A DNA stretch of 64,000 nt from Thomasclavelia ramosa DSM 1402 (GTDB lineage: Bacteria > Bacillota_I > Bacilli_A > Erysipelotrichales > Coprobacillaceae). The position numbers and the translations under genes are program-made. Positions 6,684 to 10,572 of the stretch are shown here, in pieces. Position 1 is the first letter of the stretch. Every line of letters starts with the position of its first letter. Location of the stretch: NCBI RefSeq assembly GCF_014131695.1, contig NZ_CP036346.1, forward strand, positions 930,001 through 994,000, given 5' to 3'. The notes beneath the pieces were generated by a model. That model saw only the letters and a list, made by a program, of their open reading frames with translations. It ran no database searches and was not told where the DNA came from.

Positions 6684-7421
6684 ATGGATAAAATTGTAGA
6701 AGTATGTTGTGGGAGTTATTATGATGCATTACAGGCACAATACGGTGGAGCTAGAAGAATAGAATTGAATAGTGCATTACACTTAGGTGGCTTAACCCCC
6801 TCATTAGCAACTTTATTAAAAGTTAAAGATAACACAGATTTAGAAGTTATTTGTATGGTTAGACCTCGTGGTGCTGGTTTTTGTTACAATGATGAAGATT
6901 TTGAGGTAATGAAACTGGATGCGGAAATATTACTTGATAATGGTGCAGATGGGATTGCATTTGGATGCCTTGATGAAGAAGGAGATATTAATATTCCACA
7001 AACCCGAGAAATGATCGATATTATTAAATCATATCACAAAACCGCAGTATTTCATCGTGCTATTGATTGTGTTAATGATATTGACGAGGCAATGAACATT
7101 TTGATTACTTTAGGGGTAGACCGTATTTTAACGAGTGGCTTACAAGGTAAAGCAACTCGAGGAAAAGAAATGATTAAATATTTGTATGATGCATATGGTG
7201 AGAATATTGAAATCTTAGCGGGAAGTGGAATAAATGCAGGAAATGCGAAAAAAATGCTTGATTATACAGGAATTAAGCAGCTTCATAGCTCATGTAAAGA
7301 TTGGCATACAGACTCCACTACAAGTCGTGATGAAGTCAATTTTAGTTATCACGGTGATGATTATGAGGTTGTAAGTCAAGAATTAGTAGAAATCCTAGTA
7401 GAGCTAGTTGAAGGGGAATAG
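6684..7421 (+). CDS. cutC: CutC family protein
   Basis: A 245-residue TIM-barrel protein with the CutC signatures: KIVEVCCGSYYDALQAQYGGA at the start, RIELNSALHLGGLTPS, VICMVRPRGAGFCYND, GADGIAFGCLDEEG, AVFHRAIDCV, DRILTSGLQGKA and ILAGSGINAGNA. CutC is called a copper homeostasis protein, but its enzymatic role is not settled. AAGGAG precedes the ATG, and a TATAAT lies at 6652-6657. It sits directly upstream of the magnesium-uptake unit; the next promoter begins four bases after its stop, so the two are transcribed separately. Confidence 0.9.
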   Translation: MDKIVEVCCGSYYDALQAQYGGARRIELNSALHLGGLTPSLATLLKVKDNTDLEVICMVRPRGAGFCYNDEDFEVMKLDAEILLDNGADGIAFGCLDEEGDINIPQTREMIDIIKSYHKTAVFHRAIDCVNDIDEAMNILITLGVDRILTSGLQGKATRGKEMIKYLYDAYGENIEILAGSGINAGNAKKMLDYTGIKQLHSSCKDWHTDSTTSRDEVNFSYHGDDYEVVSQELVEILVELVEGE

Positions 7422-7424
7422 GGG

Positions 7425-7452
7425 TTGACATTATCTTTAATAGTGTTAAACT
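7425..7452 (+). promoter_or_regulatory. Promoter of the M-box/mgtA unit
   Basis: A consensus TTGACA at 7425-7430, a 16-base spacer and TAAACT at 7447-7452 place the transcription start just before the riboswitch. Confidence 0.75.
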
Positions 7453-7462
7453 ATAAGCGATA

Positions 7463-7602
7463 AAAGAATCGGTAGGTGAGACTACCATAGGGATACGGGT
7501 TGCTACCGCAAAGCAGTGGAGACACTGTGCGCTGGTCAACAGTTCTTGTCGTGAAGGCAAAAACTAATGCAATTACATGGCCCTATGATGTTGAAGCTTG
7601 AA
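7463..7602 (+). ncRNA. M-box (ykoK) magnesium riboswitch
   Basis: The leader contains the hallmark blocks of the ykoK/M-box aptamer in order: GGTAGGTGAGACTACC, ATAGGGATACGGGTTGCTACC, AAAGCAGTGGAGACACTG, GCGCTGGTCAACAG, a GAAGGC segment, ACTAATGC, and ATGGCCCTATGATGTTGAAGC. This aptamer binds Mg2+ and, in Bacillus, favours a downstream terminator when Mg2+ is plentiful. Here it is followed by a clear terminator (7623-7655) and, further on, by a magnesium-transporting P-type ATPase gene, which is the expected target. Confidence 0.9.
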
Positions 7603-7622
7603 CGAGATAAAGTTATTTTCAT

Positions 7623-7655
7623 GCCTTGTCGCGTTTGAGCGATGAGGCTTTTATT
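7623..7655 (+). terminator. Riboswitch expression-platform terminator
   Basis: GCCTTGTCGC pairs over ten positions (two G-U) with GCGATGAGGC around GTTTGA and is followed by TTTTATTTT. AAGGCA in the aptamer 3' part (about 7554-7559) can pair with TGCCTT at the base of this hairpin, a plausible antiterminator. Confidence 0.8.
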
Positions 7656-7672
7656 TTGTGGAGGTGAAGAAA

Positions 7673-7747
7673 ATGGATGATTATTTATCGATGAATTTTA
7701 AAAGATGGCTTTTTGATGATGGGATAATTACGTCCATTTTCGCCTAG
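7673..7747 (+). CDS. Short acidic leader ORF 1 (24 aa) in the mgtA leader
   Basis: ATG at 7673 follows GTGGAGGTGAAG, a strong ribosome site. The peptide is MDDYLSMNFKRWLFDDGIIT plus SIFA, then TAG. The first residues are acidic (DD), and a second DD pair sits in the middle. Codons 10-13 lie in AAGATGGCT (7702-7710), which is complementary to AGCCATCTT (7746-7754) spanning the stop codon; that second segment is also the 5' arm of the hairpin at 7746-7764. This layout is that of an attenuation leader peptide. No match to a named protein is recognised; the role is inferred from position, ribosome site and RNA folding only. Confidence 0.6.
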   Translation: MDDYLSMNFKRWLFDDGIITSIFA

Positions 7748-7770
7748 CCATCTTAATGATGGCTTTTTCT
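7746..7770 (+). terminator. Attenuator-like terminator overlapping leader ORF 1 stop
   Basis: AGCCATC pairs with GATGGCT around TTAAT and is followed by TTTTTCTAT. The same 5' arm can instead pair with 7702-7710 inside leader ORF 1 (nine pairs), so the two folds exclude each other. Confidence 0.65.
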
Positions 7771-7799
7771 ATATCTAAAATTTTGAAAGGAGAAAAAGA

Positions 7800-7895
7800 A
7801 TGGAAGAGCATGGCCGGTATGACAATGATGTTTATAAGTCCCGAATAATGGCGATGCCATTCTTTAGGATAGTTTTGTCATACTCTAAAATTTAA
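7800..7895 (+). CDS. Short leader ORF 2 (31 aa) in the mgtA leader
   Basis: ATG at 7800 follows GAAAGGAGAAAA. The product begins [15 protein letters not shown] and ends [13 protein letters not shown] at 7893-7895, 16 bases before the mgtA ATG. Like leader ORF 1 its N-terminus is acidic. The coding region contains a hairpin AATGGC-GAT-GCCATT (7847-7861) nested in a nine-pair stem GTATGACAA/TTGTCATAC (7817-7825 with 7875-7883). Its stop lies just before the mgtA ribosome site, so translation of the two may be coupled. It resembles no known protein; function is inferred from context. Confidence 0.5.
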
Positions 7896-7911
7896 TTTGG
7901 AGGGTATAACA

Positions 7912-10572
7912 ATGAGAAGATTTAATTCAATTAATGAGAGATTAGTTTTTGCGAGTGAGAATAAAACTAATCAAGTTTTAGATAGTTTTGAAACAAATAA
8001 AATGGGAATCACGAATGAAACAGTCAAACATCATAGTGATGAATTTGGTAAAAATATTATTACTAAACAAAAAAAAGATTCTATATTAAAAAAAATATTT
8101 AACGCTTTTATAAATCCATTTACTGCAATTTTATTAATACTAGCAGTAGTATCTTTATTTACTAATGTGATTTTTGCAGAAACTAGTGAAAAGGATCCAA
8201 CTACAGTAATCATTATTGTAGTTATGGTAATGATATCTGGAATATTACGCTTTATTCAAGAACAAAGAAGTGGGAGTGCAGCAGAGAAGCTGATTGCAAT
8301 GATTTCAAATACTACAAATATTAAACGATATGGACAAGAAGCAAAAGAGATTCCAATTGATGAAGTAGTTGTTGGTGATATTGTATATTTGAGCGCAGGA
8401 GATATGATTCCTGGAGATTTGAGAATTATTGAAGCTAAAGATTTATTTATTAGCCAAGCAAGTTTAACAGGTGAAAGTGAACCAGTTGAAAAATTCGCAA
8501 TTGAAACAACTGTAGGGACGAATGTGCTTGAAGCACAAAATCTGGCTTTTATGGGAAGTGATGTAATTAGCGGAAGTGCTGTCGGTGTGGTAATTGCGAC
8601 AGGTGATGAAACTATGCTGGGAAGAATTTCTATTGATTTAAATAAAAAGAGAGAATTAACAACTTTTGAAATTGGAATTAATTCTGTATCGTGGCTTTTG
8701 ATTCGTTTTATGTTAGTTATGGTACCTGTTGTTTTATTTATTAATGGATTTACTAATGGAGATTGGTTAGATGCAAGTTTATTTGCATTAAGTGTTGCTG
8801 TAGGTTTGACACCTGAAATGCTTCCGATGATCGTCACAACTAGTCTTGCTAAAGGCTCTCTTGCAATGGCTAAGGAAAAAACTATAATTAAAAATTTAAA
8901 TTCAATTCAAAATCTTGGTGCTATTGATATTCTTTGCACAGACAAAACAGGAACTTTAACACAAGATGAAGTAATTTTAGAATTTCCTTTAGATGTTCAC
9001 GGGAAAATTGATTTAAGAGTTTTGCGACATGCATTTTTGAATAGTTATTATCAAACAGGATTAAATAATCTAATGGATAAAGCAATTATTAATAGTACGT
9101 TGGCTGAACAAGATAATGATTCGAGCTTAAAAGATTTAACAAACAAATATGAAAAAATTGATGAGATTCCATTTGATTTTCAACGACGAAGAATGTCTGT
9201 TATTATTCAGGATCAAGATGGTAAAGTACAGATGGTTACAAAAGGAGCAATTGAAGAAATGCTCAGTGTTTGTAGATATGTTGAGTATCTTGGTAAAGTT
9301 TGGCCGTTAACACAAAAATTAGAGAAAATAATTATCAATCAAGTTGAACAACTTAATGAAAAAGGTTTACGGGTCTTGGGAGTGAGTCAAAAAACAGATC
9401 AGGATTTAGTACAAAAATGTACCGTTAGTGATGAAAAAGATATGGTTTTAATTGGATATTTAGCTTTTCTAGACCCTGCAAAAGAATCAACAGCCCCAGC
9501 GATAAAAGCATTGAAGGAACATGGTGTAGCAACAAAAATTTTGACAGGAGATAATGAAAAAGTAACTAAAGCAATTTGTCAAAAGGTAGGATTGAATGTT
9601 GAAAATATTTTATTAGGCCAAGATGTTGCAAAGATGGGCTTGGATAAACTGAAGGAAGTTGTAGAAACAACAACAATTTTTGCAAAATTATCACCGGAAC
9701 AAAAGGCACTGATTATTAAAGTTTTAAAAGAAAATGGACATAGCGTTGGATATATGGGCGATGGTATTAATGACGCATTAGCTCTAAAGGCAAGCGATGT
9801 AGGAATTTCTGTTGATAGTGGAGTAGATATTGCTAAAGAAGCAGCTGATGTAATTTTATTAGACAAAGACTTAATGGTTCTTGAAAAAGGATTGGTTGAA
9901 GGCCGCAAAGTTTATGCTAATATGATTAAATATATAAAAATGACGGCCAGTTCTAATTTTGGTAATATGTTTTCAGTTTTAATTGCAAGTGCATTTTTAC
10001 CATTTTTACCAATGGCACCAATTCAGTTATTGTTGCTAAATTTAATCTATGATATTGCTTGTATAACCTTACCGTTTGACCGTGTTGACGAGGAGTATTT
10101 AAAAATCCCTCGAACATGGGAAGCATCATCAATTGGAAGATTTATGTTATGGATGGGACCAATTAGTTCAATTTTTGATATTATGACATATGTATTGATG
10201 TTTTATTTTATAGCCCCAATAATGGCTGGAGGAAGTTATCAATCATTAACAAATCCTGATTATTTCATTGCAGTTTTTCAAACGGGCTGGTTTATTGAAT
10301 CAATGTGGAGCCAAATTCTTGTTATTCATTTAATTAGAACAGCAAAAGTACCATTTATTCAAAGTAAACCTGCCCTATTTGTAACGATTTTTACATTATT
10401 ATCTGCATTTGTTTTAACGCTTATTCCATTTAGTCACTTAGCTAAAGCAATTGGGCTTACTAGTTTGCCAGCTTATTATTTTGGATTATTAATAATAATT
10501 GTTATTTTATATATTGTATTGACAACAGTAGTTAAACGTGTTTATCTAAATAAATATCACGAATGGTTATAA
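7912..10572 (+). CDS. mgtA: Magnesium-translocating P-type ATPase
   Basis: An 886-residue P3B-type ATPase. The start is ATG 7912 behind TTGGAGGG; an upstream in-frame TTG at 7897 is inside that ribosome site. It has the N-terminal cation-ATPase segment, membrane pairs at about 65-115, the actuator with [10 protein letters not shown], the phosphorylation motif CTDKTGTLT (D344), the nucleotide-binding KGAIEEML, the hinge MGDGINDAL (about 616) followed by [20 protein letters not shown], and C-terminal membrane helices. The [19 protein letters not shown] segment is typical of MgtA/MgtB. It imports Mg2+ at the cost of ATP. Control by the upstream M-box supports the substrate directly. Confidence 0.95.

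Follow-up and report, generated by a model that had tools for sequence, protein, structure and literature searches.

The mgtA leader in the window (the whole 64,000-nucleotide stretch of Thomasclavelia ramosa DSM 1402 DNA that was analysed) appears to hold three gates in series, namely a riboswitch, a ribosome-controlled attenuator and a translational gate, all of which would be ON at low Mg2+; we give this reading a probability of about two in three. The elements follow one another in the order M-box, T1, ORF1, T2, ORF2, mgtA. Comparison with related leaders and folding show, at the level of sequence, that the ORFs are conserved, that their starts have an acidic bias and that the leaders can form mutually exclusive predicted helices with compensatory changes. 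A sequence-only reading of the same DNA had proposed a two-sensor leader; its second switch, placed after the riboswitch, is supported here, but a second acidic ORF at 7800-7895 brings the number of gates to three instead of two.

Setting of the mgtA leader

The host genome (3.25 Mb, one contig) belongs to the order Erysipelotrichales and to a family shared with Beduini massiliensis. The outer elements of the leader and the gene itself are:

7425..7452, + strand: probable promoter (TTGACA, 16 nt, TAAACT; 10/12 in a consensus scan), start site at about 7460
7461..7615, + strand: M-box Mg2+ riboswitch aptamer (RF00380), 99.8 bits against a gathering cut-off of 44
7623..7648, + strand: T1, intrinsic terminator of the riboswitch (mechanical terminator scan), T run from 7649
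7899..7904, + strand: Shine-Dalgarno (SD) sequence of mgtA (GGAGGG), read from the sequence
7912..10572, + strand: mgtA, magnesium-translocating P-type ATPase (TIGR01524, 1090 bits against a cut-off of 611)

Promoter-like sites are no denser than chance in the consensus scan, and the one at 7425..7452 ends immediately 5' of the M-box. Assignment to the M-box family is supported by the score above the gathering cut-off, by the position upstream of a Mg2+ transporter gene and by the presence of T1 between the two; T1 is equivalently placed in Beduini and other relatives. The M-box and T1 would together form gate 1. The mechanical scan found three terminator-like sites in 6800-8200, T1 and T2 included, against 0.4 expected in shuffles.

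An mgtA with an M-box is missing from the other eight genomes of the host genus, one of which has a 47% identical mgtA with neither M-box nor leader; either acquisition of the unit by transfer or its loss from the others is therefore probable. The closest mgtA genes (55-62% identical) are found in other genera. Some relatives (L085-L093) possess two adjacent mgtA genes, in which the 43-46% identical copies are not preceded by leader ORFs. A reading frame resembling a response regulator is located between the paired genes or next to them.

ORF1 and its alternative helices

Between T1 and ORF2 the following features were identified:

7660..7667, + strand: SD of ORF1, strong, GGAGGTGA, read from the sequence
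7673..7747, + strand: ORF1, 24-codon leader peptide MDDYLSMNFKRWLFDDGIITSIFA, ATG at 7673, TAG at 7745-7747; D/E-start counterparts in L084, L097 and 12 further loci
7702..7710, + strand: antiterminator strand AAGATGGCT, 29 nt past the A of the ATG; nine pairs with 7746-7754, covariation over 15 loci
7746..7754, + strand: shared strand AGCCATCTT, 3' side of the antiterminator and 5' arm of T2; perfect nine-pair match to 7702-7710
7746..7768, + strand: T2, intrinsic terminator (stem 7746-7752:7758-7764, T run 7764-7768), from the mechanical scan; stem dG -10.8
7661..7687, + strand: P0 5' strand, over the ORF1 SD, start and first codons; pairs with 7721-7745, dG -20.3, shuffle p 0.003
7721..7745, + strand: P0 3' strand, pairs with 7661-7687; P0 also has p<0.05 in L004, L028, L039, L051, L067, L070 and L084

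The sequence-only reading had described ORF1 with its strong SD, the nine-pair helix 7702-7710:7746-7754 and the terminator 7746-7764, and these coordinates hold base for base. It had also set two structures in competition. Both pairings hold in the sequence, but the minimum-energy fold of 7655-7775, a segment that folds 3.9 sd below its shuffles, consists of T2 and a third helix, P0, which closes the SD and start of ORF1. P0 crosses the antiterminator, so that the two are incompatible in one simple fold. The T2 stem is formed by AGCCATC (7746-7752) and GATGGCT (7758-7764), followed by TTTT, and the antiterminator shares 7746-7752; the fold energies are -20.5 kcal/mol for the antiterminator part and -10.8 for the T2 stem. 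When ORF1 was shuffled 400 times with its dinucleotides preserved, the antiterminator duplex of the window had p = 0.01; T2 was entered by hand for this test and was independently found by the mechanical scan and by the attenuator scan described below. For P0 the shuffle p value of 0.003 is the same in the window and in Beduini, and the combined p value is 9e-9, a figure overstated, as are all combined p values here, by the relatedness of the loci.

The leader thus has the parts of a trp-type attenuator, i.e. a leader ORF, an antiterminator and an intrinsic terminator that exclude one another, and a helix over the ORF start. Control codons for one amino acid, the other hallmark of the trp type, were not found among these leaders, whose only common codon is Asp/Glu at residue 2. 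The Trp codon of the window ORF1 sits in the antiterminator RNA. Tryptophan sensing through the conserved TGG was considered and rejected, since this codon is a consequence of the RNA motif GATGG and is lost at loci where the motif is read in a different frame. An independently functioning small protein was likewise rejected, only the first residues and the RNA being conserved.

The stop codon of ORF1 (7745-7747) overlaps the first bases of the T2 5' arm in the window, whereas a gap of 10-61 nt separates the stop from the downstream T2 at nearly all other loci. With such an overlap a slow terminating ribosome would block T2 and blur the logic of the switch.

Conservation of the proposed attenuator

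M-box, T1, ORF1, T2, ORF2 and mgtA are kept in three Erysipelotrichales genera, represented by the window, Beduini massiliensis (L084/L045) and L097. Beduini (L084) has MMDEYRRYKNWQMFSSCLF as ORF1 and a peptide beginning MDLDSSSSGTKSKERV as ORF2, and ORF1 of L097 is MDGYQWCKWLKRRWHRYRCIFL. Among the 80 nearest mgtA loci, which were taken from species genomes, are mostly from Clostridia and Streptococcaceae and are referred to as the Clostridia set, nearly all have a strong-SD small ORF 5' of mgtA, usually after an M-box, and many have two. The attenuator scan selected terminators with a 5' arm that has an alternative pairing partner upstream, and required an SD-start 15-48 nt 5' of that partner strand. 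It led to 15 credible deduplicated ORF1/T2 loci, mostly from Clostridia, in which the antiterminator strand begins 25-39 nt past the start codon. A design that the sequence-only reading did not know from Bacillota recurs widely in their mgtA leaders. That reading had called for a comparison with relatives, and these were found to conserve the ORF, the acidic beginning of its peptide and the complementarity of 7702, 7746 and 7758. Five loci with two ORFs (L009, L013, L038, L043 and L064) were not recovered by the simple attenuator scan.

The letters of the pairing vary from locus to locus: AAGATGGCT:AGCCATCTT in the window, TGGCAGATG:CGTCTGCCA in Beduini, GGCGATGGC:GCCATTGCT in L097 and GAAACGATGGACAG:TTGTCCATCGTTTT in L006. 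The reading frame over the antiterminator motif varies as well (KRW, NDG, RMM), which indicates that RNA and not peptide is conserved there. Besides the window, ten loci have an ORF1 antiterminator that stands out from shuffles (p 0.0025-0.05). Over the 15 loci 89% of cells are paired, against 24-70% in slid registers, and both-sided changes occur in 6 of the 10 antiterminator pairs (17 such cells against 6.9 in shuffles); these counts lean towards pairing, since the loci were chosen for having the helix and the register was fitted to each, and the dinucleotide-shuffle tests (p 0.01 in the window, <0.05 in the ten others) are less biased.

These changes bear on the idea that T2 is a relic or serves for insulation, its complementarity to ORF1 being the by-product of a short duplication (GATGGCTTTTT at 7704 and 7758). 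The two copies in the window are indeed identical over 11 nt, but Beduini and the Clostridia keep the pairing with other letters and compensatory changes, its distance to the start codon being unchanged, and we hold a duplication origin to be very improbable. As a prediction from sequence comparison, the ORF1/T2 attenuator is well supported.

Ribosome position and leader folding

Ribosome states were represented by masking, a ribosome at the start covering -15 to +24, and the RNA was folded only as far as the terminator loop. With a ribosome at the start the antiterminator probability is 0.98 in the window and 0.89-1.00 in all 15 loci; it is zero, by construction, for a ribosome inside ORF1. 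In the bare window RNA, where the SD and start of ORF1 are closed, it is 0.21, and the earlier suggestion that early loss of the ribosome alone permits readthrough has to be corrected for the window. The full-length masked fold of the window gives T2 when no ribosome is present, the antiterminator when one is at the start and T2 when one is inside the ORF, in agreement with the earlier proposal that the antiterminator would be covered, and T2 left to form, when a ribosome is within ORF1. Full-length equilibrium folds of most relatives favour T2 irrespective of ribosome position, so that the switch there must be kinetic; such folds, which include the whole terminator, are uninformative for the relatives and were replaced by the folds up to the terminator loop. 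Naked RNA would thus favour termination because P0 sequesters the SD and start of ORF1 and excludes the antiterminator, and the masked-fold probabilities imply that the ON state needs ribosomes that stay at the first codons or return to them.

Gate 2 could then work as follows. When no ribosome is present, the SD and start of ORF1 would be paired with 7721-7745 in P0, T2 would form and the gate would be OFF. A ribosome that is held at the first ~5 codons, or that repeatedly initiates and aborts there, would block P0 and leave 7702-7710 free; the antiterminator would form, RNA polymerase would read through and the gate would be ON. A ribosome elongating into approximately codons 6-17 would cover 7702-7710, T2 would form and the gate would again be OFF. 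The RNA polymerase of Bacillus subtilis is thought to outrun the ribosomes, which would leave little time for gate 2 unless the polymerase pauses.

The second leader ORF

A further ORF lies between T2 and mgtA:

7800..7895, + strand: ORF2, second leader peptide of 31 residues, starts MEEH, strong SD AAAGGAG; ends just 5' of mgtA
7817..7825, + strand: anti-sequester strand in ORF2, GTATGACAA, pairs with 7875-7883; p 0.18 in the window alone
7874..7887, + strand: strand with two alternative partners, ORF2 (7817-7825) and the mgtA ribosome site (7900-7913); overlap of these partners at 58 of 64 loci

An acidic-start ORF occupies the ORF2 position in 52 deduplicated leaders. Opening of the mgtA ribosome site is greater with a ribosome at the ORF2 start than with one in the ORF2 body, by 0.145, a difference that shrinks to 0.011 when the pairing region is shuffled; the effect is upward in 37 and downward in 1 of the 52 loci (p 1e-7). 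Alternative stems of the mgtQ type, one opening and the other closing the downstream ribosome site, are found across 52-64 loci. The window's own ORF2 gate is weak as a single locus (p 0.18 and 0.21, opening change 0.076). On the strength of the folding model, ORF2 probably gates the mgtA ribosome site. In this gate 3 the early region of ORF2 and the ribosome site would compete for one strand, and ribosomes halted early on ORF2 would open mgtA for translation.

Acidic starts of the leader ORFs

Leader ORFs with an ATG start and an SD of at least 6 matching bases were counted in 89 deduplicated leaders. Asp or Glu is at residue 2 in 51 of 71, compared with 22 of 233 ordinary long genes and 11 of 122 other small SD-ORFs, the background being genes of the window and of the fetched loci. 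Positions 3-10 are likewise richer in acidic residues, and an acidic residue stands beside proline within residues 2-15 in 28/71 leader ORFs against 12/227 (p 2e-11); examples such as METGSKHSPDPDGR and MESQSINSPEPERPQ recall the EPDP of MgtL. Acidic or acid-proline codons at the ORF start, as in leaders of the MgtL type, are therefore present. In the window ORF1 starts MDD and has no proline, and ORF2 starts MEE and has only a late one.

Such a bias could in principle arise at the RNA level. GAN codons always specify Asp or Glu, so that an AUGGA motif would mimic an acidic start; the motif might be kept for pairing (in P0 or an ORF2 start helix), the ORFs being scarcely translated and the helices serving as additional modules of the M-box platform. 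P0 does use the AUGGA bases. However, leaders whose second codon is not GAN are still acidic or proline-containing early on (MQIDDHPEPH, MPEDGHPE, MCTDPDGN), and those that, like MQIDDHPEPH, are acidic with no AUGGA motif argue for the peptide over the RNA motif. The enrichment extends to residues 3-10 and to the neighbourhood of proline, and near-perfect SDs are retained. We judge this RNA-only explanation improbable.

M-box leaders of mgtE from the same order had been intended as a negative control, with a mixed outcome. Four related loci have no ORF, and seven have one with a strong SD (L125, L135, L139, L142, L145, L146 and L147); several of the mgtE-leader ORFs have early acidic residues (MENAKPGG, MEASVPDRR, MDEG, MCTDPDGN). 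These small ORFs come after the M-box terminator, and some overlap or run into the mgtE start region. In some mgtA leaders (L094, L095 and L110) the M-box is not accompanied by an acidic ORF. L119 and L120 (L117 being the same region as L120) depart from the acidic pattern: their M-boxes are very strong, at 146-147 bits, and the ORF, MKSQTGCR...NDD, has a basic start. The mgtA leaders of Streptococcus (L017, L057, L062, L071, L079 and L081) have in common a peptide of a different type that contains QIDDHPEPH, or LIDDHPEPH in the case of L071, together with SQSLI. The later portion of this ORF forms pairs with the strand 5' of mgtA (CAGCCAATCGCT:AAGTGATTGGCT in L017).

We infer that ORF1 and ORF2 are translated, that T2 terminates transcription and that Mg2+ is the signal for gates 2 and 3. 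The acidic first codons, acidic-proline in many relatives, would cause early elongation failure at low Mg2+ as in MgtL and MgtQ, and it is by likeness to these two that Mg2+ is proposed as the signal of the attenuator. ORF1/T2 and ORF2 could instead be true ribosome gates that report general trouble in initiation or early elongation (ribosome shortage, amino-acid or ATP state, antibiotics) and not Mg2+ specifically. What is conserved is limited to geometry and acidic starts, and in the mgtCBR leaders of Salmonella similar ORFs respond to ATP and charged tRNA-Pro (PMC3641672). Nevertheless, apart from residue 2 the ORFs share no codon at which a ribosome must stop; they are placed in Mg2+ transporter leaders behind M-boxes, including those of several mgtE genes, and their acid-proline runs fit the known motif for Mg2+-dependent drop-off. 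A general signal is in our view unlikely, and Mg2+ remains the signal that we prefer.

Discussion

The search covered the open-access full-text literature, and within it no report was found of Bacillota M-boxes followed by acidic leader ORFs. The leader peptides matched no Pfam or NCBIfam family above cut-off, and in Rfam the M-box part alone matched above cut-off; sub-threshold Rfam matches (freshwater-2, sRNAs) were judged to be chance. Each single element has a precedent, and the searches suggest that acidic leader ORFs behind Bacillota M-boxes have not previously been described.

Mg2+ sensing through destabilization of the ribosome by an acidic nascent chain is known from Enterobacteriaceae. 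The balance tips slightly towards a system, widespread among Gram-positive bacteria and so far undescribed, that uses the ribosome with its nascent chain as a Mg2+ sensor: acidic ORFs behind the M-box would place up to three Mg2+ gates on importer genes (a ligand-binding RNA, a ribosome-controlled intrinsic terminator and a ribosome-controlled translation start), as a Bacillota counterpart, probably convergent, of MgtL/MgtQ. If this is true, the strategy would be a general bacterial one, present in mgtA and some mgtE leaders of Clostridia, Erysipelotrichales, Streptococcaceae and others, and a riboswitch and a ribosome would sense the same ion within one leader. The many natural leader variants would make it possible to study the reason for stacking two or three sensors, and the leader ORFs are a defined group of small ORFs, so far unannotated, whose proposed role can be tested.

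Comparison with known systems

A close parallel in logic is the mgtL-mgtA leader of E. coli and Salmonella, where an acidic (EPDP) leader peptide also lies 5' of mgtA. Ribosomes drop off MgtL at EPDP at low Mg2+, and this early failure alters the RNA structure so that transcription continues (PMC11282234); the same logic is proposed here. That leader has a Rho-dependent terminator and no M-box, whereas the present one has the intrinsic T2 in that place, with an M-box upstream and a second ORF downstream, and peptide homology between MgtL and the window leader peptides was not seen. For ORF2 the proposed logic is that of mgtQ-mgtB of Salmonella, in which poor translation of a small ORF with Asp2 and Glu5 leads to an alternative stem that frees the downstream ribosome site and opens mgtB translation (PMC8092293); mgtQ differs in lying between two operon genes, in having 8 codons and in having no riboswitch. 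In the tandem attenuators mgtM/mgtP of Salmonella mgtCBR, too, a Mg2+ transporter gene is preceded by a pair of consecutive leader ORFs (PMC3641672), but there the signals are ATP and charged tRNA-Pro, and there is no M-box.

Ribosome-mediated attenuation is itself known in Bacillota (PMC4191407, PMC9226507). The leaders of bmrCD, vmlR and mef/mel are reported to combine ribosome-controlled attenuation with an intrinsic terminator (PMC4191407, PMC9226507, PMC4335068), as proposed for the present one, and differ in that they respond to antibiotics or growth state and not to metal ions, with no riboswitch upstream. Finally, in the pe20/rv1805A leader of Mycobacterium tuberculosis small ORFs come after the M-box, as here, and an RNA switch acts on a ribosome site (PMC12810186); in that system, however, the riboswitch controls the uORF, with Rho, there is no ribosome-controlled intrinsic terminator, and the peptide is specific to mycobacteria.
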